A stretch of DNA of 64,000 bases from Enteroscipio rubneri (GTDB lineage: Bacteria > Actinomycetota > Coriobacteriia > Coriobacteriales > Eggerthellaceae): assembly GCF_002899715.1 (NCBI RefSeq), contig NZ_PPEK01000001.1, positions 1 to 64,000 of the forward strand. The letters are read 5' to 3'. Positions 11 through 39,524 of this stretch are shown here, piece by piece. How positions within the stretch are numbered: position 1 is the stretch's first letter; each line of letters starts with the position of its first letter. The translations under genes were made by a program, and so were the position numbers. The notes beneath the pieces were generated by a model. The model had not been told where the DNA came from. It made no database searches and worked only from the letters and a program-made list of their open reading frames with translations.

Positions 11-1428
11 TTACCCGCCGTCATCGAGGCGTTGAGCGCGCGGAAGGTGAGCGTCGGCTTGTCGATGGTGAAGTCGAACGCGGTCGAGCCCATGCATACG
101 TGGCCCGGCGAGATTGCTATCGTCACCTGGTAGGTGCCGGCGTTTGTGGGCGGCGTGGTGGAATCGTAGCGCGTGCCGTCGGTGGCCGTGCCGGTGTAGG
201 TGGTGTCGAACGTTTCGCCCGGCAAAGTGCCGTAGTCCACGCGTTTGCCATTGTAGAGGTAGTAGGCTGTCGGGGTTCCCTCGAAGCCCGCATGGGGTTG
301 GCCGTCGTATTCGACAGGCGAGGGTAGCGGGGTTACGCCTTCGATAGCCTTCACTGTCTCCCTAAAGTACTGCACGTGCAAGGTGACGTTGAAGTCCCCG
401 TGGTTTTCAAGCGCGCTCATCCGAACCGTCACGGCATCGTAGGCATCGTCGCCCTTGCCGTTGGCGTAGACCTTGAGATAGGCCTCGTTGTTTATGTTCT
501 CGATCTCGGCTTTATACAGACCCTGGGTTTCCGTCATGTCCGTGATGATCGTGTACGTGGCGGACGTGCTGCCCTTCGGTATGGAATACACGGGCATACT
601 ATAGGAGGCGCCGTACTCGTTCCATACCACGTGCTTGGTCGCTTCGTTGATATCCGGCATCGGCATTTTGACTATCATGACCTCACCTACTACGTTGTAT
701 GTGCCGGGAGAGGTCTGCAGATCGTAGTTGTAGCTGGTCGGGTTGTTGTAGGACACGCTTGTGGCCTTGAACGGCTTTCCTGTAGGCGTGCCGTTCTTGG
801 TTGCGACGTTGCCATCGGGGACGTGCCCGCCTGCGTCTAGCGCGTCGCCGGTTGTGGTTATGTCCACCTGGCCCTCGTCGGCGGGCACCAGACCCGTGAA
901 TGCTGTCAGCTTGATATCCGTGAACGTCGGCGTTTCTGAGTAGTCGTAGGGCCTTGTGGCGTTTTCATCGCTGGGAGAAACGGTGGCGGAGAGCGGGGCC
1001 CGCTCGATGGTGAAGCTCCTTGCGGAGGGAGCTGCCGTGCAGGGCGCGCTGTCGGGCAGCGAGAGCTCTACCTGGTAGCTGCCGGCTTGCGTGGGCGCCT
1101 CGGTGGTGGGGCCGTAGGGATGATCGTTGGGTGTGCTCTCATGGACAGTACCCGTGTAGGTCGCGATGAACGGCCCCGTGTACGTTTGCTCGACGCCGCT
1201 GCCGTCCGTGTACTTGCAGATGGGAGTCCCTTCGTATCCTCGCTGCGGTTTCCTGTCGTAGGTTGGGTTCGAACTAAGTTGCGACACGCCTTGAATCGTA
1301 CCCGTCGGCTTCACGTCAGCATGGGCGTGTTTGGCGGTATCGGGTGAGAACGTCGCCGCAAGCGCAAGCGCGCATACCAGCGCCATGCAGGCTGCGGCGA
1401 AGCGTTGAGTTTGAAACGTGCGAGGCAT
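1..1428 (-). CDS. Secreted Ig-like (MBG-type) repeat surface protein, 3' end outside window
   Basis: Partial gene read on the minus strand; 476 codons are visible and no stop is reached before the left edge. The start is an ATG preceded by a strong GGAGG site. Residues 1-38 form a signal peptide with a hydrophobic core and a probable AHA-D cleavage site. The mature part has Ig-like modules: residues about 50-165 and about 375-470 are copies of one unit, each with a Y-D-x-x-P start, an EGTP turn, a Y-T-G-T segment, an AG(S/T)YQV strand and a final F-T-I-(D/E) strand. The middle (about 165-340) is a different beta-rich stretch. This pattern is known from surface adhesins and S-layer-type proteins of Gram-positive bacteria. 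I infer export and surface display; no ligand or anchoring motif can be seen because the C-terminus is missing. Confidence 0.75.
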   Translation of the reverse strand, partial: MPRTFQTQRFAAACMALVCALALAATFSPDTAKHAHADVKPTGTIQGVSQLSSNPTYDRKPQRGYEGTPICKYTDGSGVEQTYTGPFIATYTGTVHESTPNDHPYGPTTEAPTQAGSYQVELSLPDSAPCTAAPSARSFTIERAPLSATVSPSDENATRPYDYSETPTFTDIKLTAFTGLVPADEGQVDITTTGDALDAGGHVPDGNVATKNGTPTGKPFKATSVSYNNPTSYNYDLQTSPGTYNVVGEVMIVKMPMPDINEATKHVVWNEYGASYSMPVYSIPKGSTSATYTIITDMTETQGLYKAEIENINNEAYLKVYANGKGDDAYDAVTVRMSALENHGDFNVTLHVQYFRETVKAIEGVTPLPSPVEYDGQPHAGFEGTPTAYYLYNGKRVDYGTLPGETFDTTYTGTATDGTRYDSTTPPTNAGTYQVTIAISPGHVCMGSTAFDFTIDKPTLTFRALNASMTAGNPPP

Positions 1429-1868
1429 AGCGCCTCCTTCTATCCGCGTTTGAAAGCAAGTCAACCAAGCGATGCATACGTCGTTGATGCCACCATATAC
1501 ATATCGAGAGCGAGAAAACATAGACCGGGATGAGGTTTCGGGTGTATTTCTCGCGTCCGCGAGAAAAAAGTGCGCGCGCTGCAGTGCGCGGGGTCACGAT
1601 AGGCTGGTCCATAGGCGTTCCGTGCTCGCGAACACGGGTCGCTTGGTGCCGAGGGACGCTCTATCCTTGTGCGGCGTTCGCAGCCGAGGCGGCGAAGCCG
1701 ATTCGGACATGTGCGGTCGCGATACCCGCGACGAGCCGTTCGGCGCCTAACCGAACCAGCTCCGGCAGCTGGCGGCGCATGCTGCACCGGCCAGGCGATG
1801 ACCAGGCAACGATTTCGTACAGTGTTCGTGGCATAGCCTATAATGGGGCCTTCGGGAGGAGGGGATAT
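1429..1868. other. Divergent intergenic region, surface protein / LuxR regulator
   Basis: No convincing gene lies here. Open frames continue upstream of the regulator start, but they have no ribosome site and the regulator promoter lies inside them. The region must hold the promoters of both divergent genes. Only the regulator side is clear (see 1816-1844). Confidence 0.5.
1816..1844 (+). promoter_or_regulatory. Promoter of the LuxR regulator
   Basis: A perfect TATAAT (1839-1844) lies 24 bases before the chosen start codon, with a weak -35 (CGTACA, 17-base spacer). Transcription would begin near 1851, leaving a short leader that contains the GGGAGGAGGGG ribosome site. This argues against any start codon upstream of 1869. 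Confidence 0.5.
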
Positions 1869-3314
1869 ATGGTAGATGCGCTACTGCGCCTGATTGCGCC
1901 AAGAGAGCTTGCGCTCTCCTTCGTACTCGTCCTCGTCGCTTTCTGCTGTCGCGTCGACAACGCGTTCATGATGATGCTCGATTTGCACGGTGTCGTGCCT
2001 GCGTTCCTGACGTCGCTTTCTGCGGGAGTTCTGGCTGGCTGCATCGTTACGGCTTGGAGGCCGACGCGATCGAATCGCGGCCAAATGGCCTGGATCAGCG
2101 CTTGCACTGCCAGCGGGGTTGCCGGCTTGACCGCTGCGGGTTTCGTGCATGCGCTGCCCTCCTTGTGGTGCGCGCTGGCCGCGGGCGCTCTGCTGGGCTT
2201 CGGACTCTCGTGTATGCTTTGCCGGTGGTGGGCGCAATATGCCGCGCTTTCTCCGGCGCGGCTGCTTGTGACGATGAGCGTGTCGGTTCTGCTCGCCTCC
2301 GTGCTGTGGTACCTTCTGAAGCAGGTGGGGACGTTTCCGGTCACGTGCTTCTGCCTGGTCGTGTGCGCGCTATGCGGGGGCTTGCTGCTGCTCGTCTCGC
2401 TTGCTGCGTCCGGCAAGTCCGACGAGGACGCATCCTGCGAGCAGGGTGCTGCGCCGTCGGACGAAGCGAGCCCGGTCGATGCGCGCGCCGCGTTCCGCAC
2501 GCCTGCGATTGCAGCGGCCGTCGGTCTGCTCTTCAACTTCTTCACGCTGGGGCTTACGTTCTGGCCGGCTGCTGCGGGGCTGTCTTCGTCGTCTGCGACA
2601 TGCAAGCCCGTCTCGTACCTGCTCGTGCTGGCTGCTGCGGTCGTCGCGGCGCTGCATATCCCGTCCCAGCGGCGCGCCGTGATCTCGTTCTCCCACATGG
2701 CGCTGCCCATAGCCGCCGCCATCGTCCTGGCGAGCCCGTTCGTGGACATCATCGTCGATACGAGCGCCATCCCGCTCTATTCGCCGATCACCTACGTGGG
2801 CATCGCGCTGTTCAACGTCCTTGGACTTGCGTTGCCCCTGTGCGCGGTTGCGCGTAGCTCCCGTTCGATCGCCCGCATGGCGGCGGTATACCTTGCGGCC
2901 TGCGCGCTGGCCCTGGGCGCAGGCATGGCGGTGTTTCGCGTGCTCGGCCAGGGAGCGCAGGTGGTGTCGCTGTGCATCATGGCGGGGTACTTGGCGGGCC
3001 TCGTGATCGTTTCCGTGCGTAGTGCCGCAGGTCGCATCGACCGCTTCGATGCGGAGCGGTCGAGGGAGGGCGGCTCGGACGAGCCGTCCGATCGACGCCA
3101 GACTGCCTGCGCGCGGATCGCCGAGCAGTACGCGCTCTCCCCGCGCGAGACGGAGATCCTGCGCTTCCTCGCGCGCGGGCACGGTGCGAAGTACATCGCC
3201 GAGCGTCTGTTCATATCGGCCGATACCGTGCGCACCCACTGCAAGCGCATCTACGAGAAGACCGGCGTCCATGCGAAGGACGAGCTGCTCGAACTTGTCG
3301 AGCGCGCCGAGTAG
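1869..3314 (+). CDS. LuxR-family regulator with MFS-like membrane domain
   Basis: 481 residues. Residues about 5-400 hold roughly 12 hydrophobic segments arranged like a shortened MFS transporter; residues about 415-480 are a LuxR/GerE helix-turn-helix (SPRETEIL, then a recognition helix around SADTVRTH). This two-part build is common in Eggerthellaceae, where such regulators stand beside reductase genes. I infer that the membrane part senses a small molecule and the C-terminal domain activates the Tat reductase gene that follows on the same strand. The ATG at 1869 is chosen because of the adjacent GGAGGAGGGG and the TATAAT 24 bases upstream. A terminator-like hairpin follows the stop, so the reductase probably has its own promoter. 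No receiver domain is present, so this is a one-component regulator. The ligand is unknown. Confidence 0.85.
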   Translation: MVDALLRLIAPRELALSFVLVLVAFCCRVDNAFMMMLDLHGVVPAFLTSLSAGVLAGCIVTAWRPTRSNRGQMAWISACTASGVAGLTAAGFVHALPSLWCALAAGALLGFGLSCMLCRWWAQYAALSPARLLVTMSVSVLLASVLWYLLKQVGTFPVTCFCLVVCALCGGLLLLVSLAASGKSDEDASCEQGAAPSDEASPVDARAAFRTPAIAAAVGLLFNFFTLGLTFWPAAAGLSSSSATCKPVSYLLVLAAAVVAALHIPSQRRAVISFSHMALPIAAAIVLASPFVDIIVDTSAIPLYSPITYVGIALFNVLGLALPLCAVARSSRSIARMAAVYLAACALALGAGMAVFRVLGQGAQVVSLCIMAGYLAGLVIVSVRSAAGRIDRFDAERSREGGSDEPSDRRQTACARIAEQYALSPRETEILRFLARGHGAKYIAERLFISADTVRTHCKRIYEKTGVHAKDELLELVERAE

Positions 3315-3357
3315 GAGCGCTACATAGGCCCGCCGCCCCATTAACATGGAGCAGGAG

Positions 3358-3378
3358 GCACGCTCCCCCCGAGCGTGC
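3358..3378 (+). terminator. Hairpin after LuxR gene
   Basis: Arms GCACGCTC and GAGCGTGC pair perfectly around a C5 loop, 44 bases after the stop codon. There is no U tract, as is common in GC-rich genomes. Confidence 0.5.
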
Positions 3379-3424
3379 GTATCGTGCCGTAGTACCCCGA
3401 ACCGGTGACAAGCTGAACGCGGAA

Positions 3425-3469
3425 TACCACGGTACGGGGACGGACGAAAGCCCCCTTCCTGCGTATACT
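3425..3469 (+). promoter_or_regulatory. Promoter and possible LuxR site of the reductase gene
   Basis: TATACT (3464-3469) is a good -10 with a weak -35 (CGGACG, 3441-3446). Just upstream lies the short dyad TACCACGGTA (3425-3434), centred about 46 bases before the expected transcript start. That is where LuxR-type activators usually bind. The dyad is short, so the operator call is tentative. Confidence 0.35.
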
Positions 3470-3535
3470 CCTCAGCATTCCCCTTCCGCCTGCGCGGAAA
3501 GGAGAAGGAAGCTACGAATAGAGGAGGGATACGGT

Positions 3536-35656: not shown

Positions 35657-37624
35657 TTACGAGACAGCTTGCTCGCAGCACGTCTGCACGGCGGTGCGGA
35701 AGGCGTCGGAGGTGCGCGTGGCGCCCGACACCGTGTCGACGGCCGGAGTTTGCTGTTCGATGACCGCCGGGATGAGCGTATTTTCCATGGCGGCCTGACC
35801 CACATAGGTGGTTTCCAGTTCGTTCTCCTGGCTGATCTCGGCTATCTTGCCGCCTTCGACGGTTACAGTCACCGTGATGTCGCTGAACATACCGAACTGG
35901 GTATCGGTATAGACGCCGTCCTTGAGCGCGCCCTCGGGCATGCTCCATGAGACATCGGGCACCGATTCGCTCGTGTCGCCTTCGGACGAAACCGATCCCG
36001 CCTTGCTCGATCCGATATACTCGGCGGCGGATTTGCTCGCGAAGCGACCTGAGTTGATGTTGTTAGCGTTTGTGCCGCCCGGCACGTTGATGGTGTAGAT
36101 GTTGGGCCACAGATCCGCCGAGTCCACGCCGGCGGAGTACAGGCCGGGCACGGGCTGCCCGTTCTTGTCCACGACCTCCATCTTGCGGTTTGTGCGAATG
36201 CCGCCGAATGTCACCATGCAGGATTGGGGCATGTAGCAGAAGTAGAACGGCGGGTTCTCAAGCTTCTGCAGGTACTCGGCGGGCTTGCCGAAGTACGCGT
36301 CGCGCTTCGCATCGCACATCTCATTGTAGGTGGTGATAGACGCTATGACCGTGTCGTAGTCGAGATCGAGGGCGCTGCTGGCCTTCTGCGCCAGCTCCTC
36401 AAGTGTGTCGGCGCTGAAGAAGTCGTCATGCGGGTTTTCCTCGATGCGCTGCTTAAGCTCTTCTTGGGTGGCCGCCCAATCGAGGCGCGGGGCTATCATG
36501 CCGTCGTAGGCGTCCTTGAAGATCTTGGCGTCGTAGATCGAGAAGAGCTTCTGGTGCATGAGCGAGGGGATCATGTCGCTCATCCAGTTCTCCACGCCCG
36601 CCGATTCGGCGCAGAAGCGCTCGCCGTCCTCGTTGATCCACAGGGAGCACGCGTTGTGGCCGGCCACCACGAGCCCGTCCCCGCGCCCGTACGTGCCGTA
36701 TTCGCCGCCCGGAGCGCCCGACACGGTGAGCTGCATGAGGCCCGACATGCGCGGGATGTTGCTTGCGCCGCCGGCCTCGATGGCCATGCGCACACCGTCG
36801 CCATCGTAGCCATACAAAAAGCGCTTCACGTTGGTGGTGTCGGAGAAGCCGCCTTCCTGCAGGTATTCGTCATTGTTGGCGAAACCGCCGGTTGCCAGCA
36901 CCACTGCTTTTGCGTTCACCTGCACATAGTCGCCGTTAAGCTTCTGCGCGTACACGCCAGCGACGGCGCCGTCCTCGCCAAGGACGAGGTCGGTGGCCGG
37001 ACAATTCAGGAGGAATTGCACGCCCAGCTCTTGCGCCGTGGCGGTCATGGCGGGCGAGAAGTCGTCGTGCGCGCGGTTCTCGCCGAACCAGTGGAACGTT
37101 TCGAACAGGCCGCCGTGATAGTCGTCCACCACGCCGGTGAAGTTCACGCCGCAGTCCTGCAGCCAGCTGATGTTCTCGCCTGAGGCTTCGATCAGATCAA
37201 GCCACTTGAGGCCGTTCGCGCGGTTGTGGGAGTAGCTCATCTCCGTGGCGATGACTTCGGCCGGCTCGATCGCGATGCCTGCATCCTGCTGCATTTTCGA
37301 ATTGACGGCGAACACGCCCTCGGTGCCGATACCGCCTCCGCCCGTGCCGCCGTGCTTCTCCAACACGACGACGCCGAGCCCTTGCTGGGCGGCTTCGACG
37401 GCGGCCGAAAGGCCCGAGTTGCCCGCGCCGCAGATGCAGACGTCGCAGGTGTAGGTGGCCACGGCCTGACGCGTGACGCCGCCTTTGGCGCCGTCGCCGT
37501 CGTTCGAGGCGTCCTGCGCCGATGTGCCCGTCGAAGCAGGCGCGCATCCCGCGAGTCCCGCTCCCGCCGCCGCGACGCCCGCCATGCCCGCGATGCCCAG
37601 GAAGCTCCTTCTGGTCAGTTCCAT
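35657..37624 (-). CDS. Tat-exported flavoprotein reductase with FMN-binding domain
   Basis: 655 residues. A twin-arginine signal (TRRSFLG, residues 4-10) and lipobox LAGC (Cys27) indicate export and lipid anchoring. The FAD domain starts at about residue 60 (CICGAGNSGLSA, then LEKHGGTGGG); the C-terminal FAD segment (GGIRTNRK ... GLYSAG ... NVPGGTNANN) is at about 475-530. Residues about 560-655 are an FMN_bind domain ending in SGAT (633-636); in this family ApbE links FMN to the Thr. It thus resembles fumarate/urocanate-type reductases that take electrons through a bound FMN, without hemes. ApbE is not in the window. GGGAGAGG precedes ATG 37624. The divergent LuxR gene and the palindrome between them are the likely control. 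Substrate unknown, probably an enoate. Confidence 0.9.
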   Translation of the reverse strand: MELTRRSFLGIAGMAGVAAAGAGLAGCAPASTGTSAQDASNDGDGAKGGVTRQAVATYTCDVCICGAGNSGLSAAVEAAQQGLGVVVLEKHGGTGGGGIGTEGVFAVNSKMQQDAGIAIEPAEVIATEMSYSHNRANGLKWLDLIEASGENISWLQDCGVNFTGVVDDYHGGLFETFHWFGENRAHDDFSPAMTATAQELGVQFLLNCPATDLVLGEDGAVAGVYAQKLNGDYVQVNAKAVVLATGGFANNDEYLQEGGFSDTTNVKRFLYGYDGDGVRMAIEAGGASNIPRMSGLMQLTVSGAPGGEYGTYGRGDGLVVAGHNACSLWINEDGERFCAESAGVENWMSDMIPSLMHQKLFSIYDAKIFKDAYDGMIAPRLDWAATQEELKQRIEENPHDDFFSADTLEELAQKASSALDLDYDTVIASITTYNEMCDAKRDAYFGKPAEYLQKLENPPFYFCYMPQSCMVTFGGIRTNRKMEVVDKNGQPVPGLYSAGVDSADLWPNIYTINVPGGTNANNINSGRFASKSAAEYIGSSKAGSVSSEGDTSESVPDVSWSMPEGALKDGVYTDTQFGMFSDITVTVTVEGGKIAEISQENELETTYVGQAAMENTLIPAVIEQQTPAVDTVSGATRTSDAFRTAVQTCCEQAVS

Positions 37625-37734
37625 TTCCCTCTCCCTTTCTTCCGAATGTCGCGATGAGGCCGCCCAGGTGCTCGCCCGTCGGCCCGGCAAGCGATTCTCC
37701 CAGCGGGCAGTGGCGTGTGCAAGTACCCGTTCGA

Positions 37735-37763
37735 GGTAGAATCGTCCATGCAGGCGTGAGCAA
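37735..37763 (-). promoter_or_regulatory. Promoter of the second reductase
   Basis: On the minus strand TTGCTC, an exact 17-base spacer and TCTACC. The palindrome 37764-37780 abuts the -35 box, the classical position for a LuxR-type activator. The poor -10 fits an activated promoter. Confidence 0.55.
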
Positions 37764-37780
37764 TTACCCGTAACGGGTAA
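37764..37780. promoter_or_regulatory. Perfect 17-bp palindrome, probable LuxR operator
   Basis: TTACCCGTAACGGGTAA is TTACCCGT and ACGGGTAA around one A. The 7-base half resembles NarL-type heptamers. A further half-site, TACCCGT, occurs at 37724-37730. It lies in the 325-base gap between the divergent reductase and LuxR genes, centred about 44 bases upstream of the predicted reductase transcript start. I see nothing else of note in that gap. Confidence 0.6.
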
Positions 37781-37949
37781 GGTGGAGACCGAGCAGAGGG
37801 TGGTATCGTCGAGCATGGCCGATCTGGATCCGTGTGGACGGTGGCAGAGGCCGCTGCGGGCGCGGCGCTGAAGCCGCGGAGGGGGTGCGCAGGCGCGCGA
37901 TCGGTCGAGCATGTTCGCCGCGTACGCGGAACGAGGGGATGTGATCAGT

Positions 37950-39524
37950 ATGGCGAAGGGATCCACCGAGGTATCCGACATGCGCTGCCTGTCGGATACC
38001 GCCCCGCGCACCGGCGGTGCTGCGACCATCTACAGCACGCAGCGTGCTGCAGGCATCTTGCTTGCCCTTGCCGGCATGGCGTTGCAGTGGGCGTCGCTGC
38101 ACTCCATCACGTTCTTCGGCACGGTGGTGCGCGCAGGCGGCGATGCAGGGTCGAGCGTTGCTTGGGTGGCCAACTCGGTATGCACGTTCGCCGTGTTCCT
38201 AGCATTGTTCGTCGTATCGCGGCGCATATCCTCGCTGCTGGATGACCGGCGCACCGTGCCGTTTGCGGCGGCGTGCCTGGGGGCGGGTGCGGCGTGCTTC
38301 GCGGCGGGCGGTTTGCTGGGAGCATCGAGTCCGCTCATATTCGCAGGAAGCGTGTTCATAGCTTTCGGCACGACTCCACTCATCGTCGCATGGGGCGAGA
38401 TGTACAAGTACCTCAATCCCAAGGGCGAGCAGCTGCTCGTCACGCTCGTGGCCATCGTGTGCTCGGTGGTGACGTACTTCGTCGAGACCCATCTGCCGCT
38501 GGCCTTGGCCATGGTCGTATTCGTTGCGCTGCCAATTGGCTCGCTCGCGTGTCTGGCGCGCTCCCGCACGTTGCTCGCCGATTCATCGAGTGCGTGGGGC
38601 GCCAAAGAGAAGCTGCCGATGGAGAAGTCGCCGGCGTTGTTCTTCGTGTGCATCGCGGTGTTCTCCATCCCGTACAACTGTCTGCGCGGCAGCGAAGACA
38701 TGCAGGCGGTTCTTGCCGATGCCGCGGCGTGGTCGTGCGTGCTGGCTGTCGTTATCGTGGCGATGGTCGCGGTTGCGCTGGCCGAGTACGCTGCCGAGCG
38801 CCGGGGCGTGTTGCTGGTGCCAAGCGCCGTGCTATTTCTGCTGAGCGCTGCCATGGTGCTGCATCTGATGGGGAACGTCTCGCCATCGTTTATCGTGCCC
38901 AGCTTTCTGTATGCGGGCTATTATCTTTTTCTGGCTATGGTGTATTTGGCTCTCGGGCCGCTTGTGGCCACAACCGACGCGAACCCGGTCAGGTTGTTCT
39001 CGGGCGCAATGCTGGCCAACGTCGGCGGGCTGCTTCTGGGATCGCTGTTGGGAGGGCTCGGCGCGTGGTTGGGCGAGCAGGCGGCGGCTTTGGTGGCAAT
39101 GGGCGCCACCTACGTGATATTCTTCGCAGGATGCACGCTGCTCTACAATCGGTCGTACAGTATCTTTCGGGTGAACTCCTATGACGAGAAGAAATACTCA
39201 TTCGAGTATCTTGCGCCCGACTCCTCTGGGCTGTTGCCCGCATGCGCCGTCGATGCGATCGCGGTTGACAATGCGCAGCCGCTGCTCGATGCCATCAAAA
39301 CGCAATGCGATGTCGCACGCGACAGGTTCGGTCTGAGCTCGCGCGAGCACGAGGTGCTGGTGCTTCTGACGCGCGGGCGCACCATTGCTTCCATAGCTGA
39401 GAAACTGTACGTGTCGGAAAATACCGTGAAGGCCCACACGAAGGCCATCTATCGCAAGCTTCAGGTGCAAACGCGCGAAGAGCTTCTCATGCGGGTCCAG
39501 AATCTGCTGCGCGAGGAATCGTAA
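37950..39524 (+). CDS. LuxR-family regulator with MFS-like membrane domain
   Basis: 524 residues. After a polar 30-residue start come about twelve membrane segments (about 32-415), a linker, and a LuxR/GerE helix-turn-helix at about 455-520 (SSREHEVLVLL, then recognition helix SENTVKAH). It has the same build as the regulator at 1869-3314 and, like it, stands beside a Tat reductase, here divergent. I infer that it senses the reductase substrate or a related compound and activates that gene through the 17-bp palindrome. ATG 37950 is my choice; the in-frame GTG at 37941 directly after GAGGGG is an alternative adding three residues. Confidence 0.86.
   Translation: MAKGSTEVSDMRCLSDTAPRTGGAATIYSTQRAAGILLALAGMALQWASLHSITFFGTVVRAGGDAGSSVAWVANSVCTFAVFLALFVVSRRISSLLDDRRTVPFAAACLGAGAACFAAGGLLGASSPLIFAGSVFIAFGTTPLIVAWGEMYKYLNPKGEQLLVTLVAIVCSVVTYFVETHLPLALAMVVFVALPIGSLACLARSRTLLADSSSAWGAKEKLPMEKSPALFFVCIAVFSIPYNCLRGSEDMQAVLADAAAWSCVLAVVIVAMVAVALAEYAAERRGVLLVPSAVLFLLSAAMVLHLMGNVSPSFIVPSFLYAGYYLFLAMVYLALGPLVATTDANPVRLFSGAMLANVGGLLLGSLLGGLGAWLGEQAAALVAMGATYVIFFAGCTLLYNRSYSIFRVNSYDEKKYSFEYLAPDSSGLLPACAVDAIAVDNAQPLLDAIKTQCDVARDRFGLSSREHEVLVLLTRGRTIASIAEKLYVSENTVKAHTKAIYRKLQVQTREELLMRVQNLLREES

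Follow-up and report, generated by a model that had tools for sequence, protein, structure and literature searches.

The intergenic region between a Tat-signal flavin reductase gene and the divergent gene of a membrane LuxR regulator was found to hold two related inverted-repeat sites, which likely serve as operators for the adjacent LuxR; the latter would then activate both divergent promoters and thereby provide induction as well as positive feedback (Table 1). In each site two YACCC half-sites stand in inverted orientation (YACCY-N5-RGGTR, 15-17 bp), the two sites being 41 bp, i.e., about four helical turns, apart. The centres of operators 1 and 2 would lie some 44 bp upstream of the predicted starts of luxR and the reductase, respectively. 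The two sites occur together, at this spacing, and exclusively with this gene pair. As judged from the comparison of orthologous loci, the operator hypothesis is well supported.

Table 1. Genes, putative operators and predicted promoter elements of the reductase/luxR locus (positions within the window).
Feature	Position	Strand	Description
Tat-signal flavin reductase	35657-37624	minus	655 aa; FAD_binding_2 and C-terminal FMN_bind
Predicted reductase -10	37699-37694	minus	GAGAAT, +32 from operator 2 centre; predicted start ~37687
Operator 2 (putative)	37723-37739, centre 37731	none	Degenerate copy GTACCCG-TTC-GAGGTAG = GTACCCGTTCGAGGTAG; assigned to reductase promoter
Operator 1 (putative)	37764-37780, centre 37772	none	Perfect palindrome TTACCCG-TAA-CGGGTAA = TTACCCGTAACGGGTAA; assigned to luxR promoter
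Predicted luxR -10	37804-37809	plus	TATCGT, +32 from operator 1 centre; predicted start ~37816
Membrane LuxR regulator	37950-39524	plus	524 aa; hydrophobic multi-helix N-terminal part, C-terminal LuxR/GerE HTH

The locus lies within the window, i.e., the whole analysed stretch of 64,000 nucleotides from Enteroscipio rubneri. For both genes the likeliest start is not that of the longest ORF: position 37624 is preferred for the reductase, where MELTRRSFLG, a Tat-type signal common to the orthologs, is accompanied by a purine-rich ribosome site, and position 37950 for luxR. The nearest solved relatives of the reductase are flavocytochrome c fumarate reductases, and none of the NCBIfam equivalogs reached its cutoff when compared with the enzyme, the best being vinyl phenol reductase with 295 bits versus a cutoff of 600 bits. 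The regulator matches GerE (PF00196; E 1.1e-13, residues 475-527 of the longest ORF), possesses no receiver domain and was modelled by AlphaFold with about 12 long N-terminal helices, the model being of low confidence (mean pLDDT 57). Its recognition helix, SENTxKAHTK, is invariant among the LuxR orthologs. Orthologs of reductase and LuxR were found in exactly identical 5 of 138 family genomes, representing five genera, namely the genome under study and those of Raoultibacter timonensis, Slackia equolifaciens, Adlercreutzia mucosicola and Gordonibacter sp. An230, and the divergent arrangement, already described by an earlier sequence-only reading of this DNA, is present in all five. This co-occurrence, which involves single species of multi-species genera, suggests that the reductase/luxR cassette moved horizontally. 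With identities of 81-87% among the reductases and 51-70% among the LuxRs, the enzyme is far better conserved than its regulator. Furthermore, luxR carries at the beginning of its coding region an inverted repeat with 11-bp arms (GGTATCCGACATGCGCTGCCTGTCGGATACC, 37970-38000), which might form an mRNA hairpin; an identical repeat scan of the orthologs did not return such a repeat.

Operator 1 had been reported by the sequence-only reading as a perfect 17-bp palindrome, and its letters and coordinates proved correct: TTACCCGTAACGGGTAA comprises two 8-bp arms around a single central base. Palindromicity alone is unremarkable and proves little, as in this GC-rich DNA three perfect 8-1-8 palindromes were seen in the 64-kb window versus 2.5 expected from dinucleotide shuffles; the chance of finding one inside the reductase/luxR intergenic stretch was estimated at P ~0.009. 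What is decisive in raising TTACCCGTAACGGGTAA above chance is its conservation. Searching the 138 family genomes for TTACCCGnnnCGGGTAA returned three copies, every one at the orthologous reductase/luxR locus, and with at most one mismatch allowed, one copy per genome was obtained in all five locus carriers, in each case at the locus. The palindrome is found at the matching position in every one of the orthologous intergenic regions, the search that the earlier reading had proposed as a check, being exact in three and differing by a single mismatch in two (TTACCCGTAACGGGTAA, TTACCCGTTACGGGTAA, TTACCCGCTGCGGGTAA, TTACCCGTAACGGGTGA and CTACCCGCAACGGGTAA), whereby the variable positions fall in the spacer (TAA, TTA, CTG, CAA). 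This conservation supports an operator-like role for the palindrome in the membrane LuxR/reductase pair. When the intergenic regions of the five genera are aligned, the clustered invariant columns fall mostly in the two operators (TACCCG, CGGGT and AGG in operator 1; TACCCG and AGGT in operator 2), the -10 boxes are kept too, and the remaining intergenic sequence has almost wholly diverged.

Operator 2 follows the form [GT]TACCCGnnn[AG]AGGTrr, which is kept in 5/5 loci, 40-41 bp from operator 1 on the reductase side, its distal half being imperfect. When the 64-kb window was searched for YACCY-N5-RGGTR, two matches only were obtained, which are operators 1 and 2. At this place an extra half-site, TACCCGT at 37724-37730, had been recorded previously; the letters are indeed there, yet they do not constitute a stand-alone half-site, being part of the full operator 2. 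In four of five genera conservation extends past the 17-mer into the flank GGTAGAAT (37740-37745 region), which resembles a -10 box (TAGAAT) facing luxR. A luxR-facing promoter using this TAGAAT beside operator 2 was considered and rejected: its -10 score is good, but it has no -35, and the box is explained by the conserved flank.

For the assignment of promoters, -10 boxes were scored at every distance from each operator centre, and start positions were derived with the -10 box placed at -12 to -7. For the reductase, the best box within +10 to +100 of the operator 2 centre lies at exactly +32 in all five genomes (GAGAAT in the genome under study; CAGAAT, TAAAAT, TACGAT and TACGAT in the others). 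For luxR, four genomes have their best box +31 or +32 from operator 1 (TATCGT; TATCAT, TATGAT and TATGAT in the orthologs at +31, +31 and +32), and in Slackia it is the second-best box, AAGAAT, that lies at +32. As operator 1 stands at +31/+32 from a luxR-facing TATnnT box, the luxR promoter is its most likely own target, and the boxes point to one operator per gene, each centred about -44, with the perfect palindrome belonging to luxR. The exact phasing is not fixed, the operator spacing being 40 or 41 bp and the -10 distance +31 or +32. The two -10 boxes in the genome under study, GAGAAT and TATCGT, are weak and lack a recognisable -35, and a consensus promoter scan of the region found no promoter, an outcome to be anticipated where promoters with poor -35s depend on an activator, and equally compatible with wrongly chosen boxes.

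Regarding binding, activation, inducer and autoregulation, we infer the following course of events. Initially, an inducer, probably the substrate of the reductase, would act on the membrane domain of LuxR, upon which a dimer of the C-terminal HTH would bind to both operators, occupying the stronger operator 1 first. Positioned beside poor -35 elements, the dimer may then recruit RNA polymerase at both divergent promoters, whereby the reductase would be switched on and the level of the regulator raised, i.e., positive feedback would result. A mixed control, with operator 2 activating the reductase and operator 1 either repressing luxR (negative autoregulation) or holding a silent dimer, is rather unlikely. 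Of the two palindromes, that of operator 1 is the stronger, and it adjoins the -35 region of luxR, so that a protein bound there can also exclude polymerase; moreover, position by itself cannot separate activation from repression. The equal distance from operator centre to -10 box on both sides, however, argues for one mode, and FLAG-tagged DadR, a membrane LuxR of Eggerthella lenta, increases with its inducer dopamine (PMC9734109).

The sequence-only reading had assigned the palindrome alone to the reductase, as a class II activator site abutting a promoter formed by TTGCTC, 17 bases and TCTACC, with the transcript starting at 37728. The letters are present on the minus strand as described (37763-37758 and 37740-37735), the distance from the centre at 37772 to 37728 does amount to 44 bases, and the palindrome is conserved, but the arrangement as such is very unlikely. 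As a -10 box, TCTACC matches TATAAT at three of six positions and is devoid of the key A2 and T6; most of it is overlapped by operator 2, to whose conserved distal half-site (AAGGTAG) it belongs. It does not keep its frame with the palindrome where the operators are spaced by 40 instead of 41 bp, and its register moves in Slackia and Adlercreutzia. In place of TTGCTC the orthologs have TTACGA, TTTTCG, TTATTG and TTTTCT, and each of the five genomes offers a better -10 box at +32 from operator 2. The reductase transcript is predicted to start near 37687 and hence probably far from 37728, an outcome which that reading itself had named as speaking against it; the abutment of the palindrome on a reductase -35 is not supported, and the promoter assignment was probably wrong.

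That a different regulator owns the sites and merely controls the gene pair is given very little credence. The DNA binding of the adjacent LuxR is a prediction, and LuxR paralogs whose HTH domains are similar number in the dozens in these genomes, but the site is exclusive to genomes carrying the adjacent LuxR and adjoins its gene, and other membrane LuxRs have related but different inverted repeats by their own genes. Chance or residual homology of closely related loci as the reason for the kept palindrome is negligible, for although the cassette with its patchy distribution may have moved horizontally and about 2.5 such palindromes per 64 kb arise by chance, this is contradicted by the near-complete divergence of the remaining intergenic DNA with both sites kept and by the variable positions changing in the spacer.

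Matches to LuxR number 45 in the genome under study and 68 in its congener. In a first set of 81 other loci from both genomes, YACCY-N5-RGGTR was seen five times versus 0.1 expected from dinucleotide shuffles, and gaps of N7 and N8 were likewise raised (three each versus 0.2 and 0.1). An independent test set of 64 further loci from Raoultibacter replicated the N5 form with five seen versus 0.08 expected, and none occurred in coding controls. Gap 6 between YACCY and RGGTR, equivalent to 7-2-7, was present at one of the 81 and one of the 64 loci, gap 5 being preferred. The TACC core at a 7-bp gap was not enriched across all paralogs, and as tested, the YACCY grammar covers a minority of them. 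A -10 box at +31 recurs at loci L043, L082, L069, L084, L115, L125, L142 and L149; for N5 sites only, this holds for 3 of 12 (P ~0.01), so that the distance rule outside the five orthologs is only suggestive. An early -10 spacing test on generic high-scoring palindromes gave but a weak signal. Inverted repeats with arms of at least 7 near paralog luxR genes are about threefold as frequent as in shuffles; since this count includes intrinsic terminators and coding repeats, more weight was given to conservation and to the YACCY test. Comparing by eye the recognition-helix residues with the operator letters across paralogs revealed no simple rule.

Several membrane LuxR genes are preceded by paralog-specific inverted repeats that are kept in both species of the genus and represent candidate operators with different letters. 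The ortholog pair L061/L099 keeps CTACCCCCGGAAGGGGTAG, L064/L114 has the half-site GGATGAT three times, L047/L090 keep AACCTATCAAAA..TGrTAGGTTG, and L043/L082 keep CACCCAGCCTrGGTG. Between the congener and Raoultibacter, near-identical sites by membrane LuxRs were noted for L115/L149 (CACCTAkAATAGGTG) and L084/L126 (CACCTGAAACGGGTG). Another membrane LuxR lies in the window at 200-3500 (L057), with an upstream inverted repeat, TTTCTCGCGTCCGCGAGAAA, and a third copy of GCGAGAA. Tentatively, and with some doubt, it might be proposed that the membrane LuxRs of Coriobacteriia, of which there are dozens per genome, share an operator grammar: YACCY half-sites in inverted orientation, separated by 5 bp (sometimes 7 or 8 bp) and with paralog-specific inner bases, would lie at a fixed distance of about 44 bp ahead of the start of the enzyme and/or regulator gene. 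If this were true, inducer-responsive promoters could be paired with their regulators from sequence alone.

In architecture, the regulator resembles the LuxRs with 10-12 transmembrane segments (Dong et al. 2022; PMC9734109), which likewise combine a C-terminal LuxR/GerE HTH with a long hydrophobic multi-helix N-terminal domain, occur as dozens of paralogs per genome and are encoded next to metabolic oxidoreductases. Their enzyme neighbours are flavin- or molybdenum-dependent, as is the case here with a divergent FAD/FMN reductase in 5/5 genomes. Within this group, DadR, HcdR and CadR of Eggerthella lenta respond to substrate by activating the enzyme genes beside them (PMC9734109); the text of that report, which presents genetics and induction, was found to give no DNA site for the three. 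DNA sites are not known to be described for the membrane LuxR/reductase pairs of Eggerthellaceae, as the sequence-only reading had noted, and a published site for the membrane LuxRs was not found in the open-access literature searched either. As membrane LuxRs switch on gut enzymes that alter drugs, dietary compounds and neurotransmitters, the conserved, locus-exclusive operator pair with its predicted starts offers exact DNA to test and hence a first testable target for a large and little-understood family of gut regulators. The YACCY-N5-RGGTR signal, in turn, offers a way to predict promoters under such regulators and could, by way of reporter strains, help to find the substrates of uncharacterised reductases.

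The type of system, an activator site near -44, is a familiar one, and the surprise is moderate. The inverted heptamers through which NarL activates napF and yeaR lie at -40/-49 and -38/-47, and an engineered narG site, TACCCCTAAAGGGGTA, exemplifies its 7-2-7 arrangement (PMC4549865). Like NarL, the present system pairs an HTH of the LuxR/NarL type with inverted TACCC heptamers (TACCCGT/ACGGGTA here versus TACCCCT/AGGGGTA for NarL), and the predicted position near -43/-44 is that of an activating site. Unlike the 7-2-7 sites of NarL, however, one base separates the heptamers here (7-1-7, TACCCGT-A-ACGGGTA), and the resemblance of the proteins is confined to the HTH, a membrane domain taking the place of the phosphorylated receiver domain. 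Owing to the one-base spacer and the missing receiver domain, operator 1 was not classed as a NarL site, and a further difference from NarL lies in the provision of two operators for divergent promoters.
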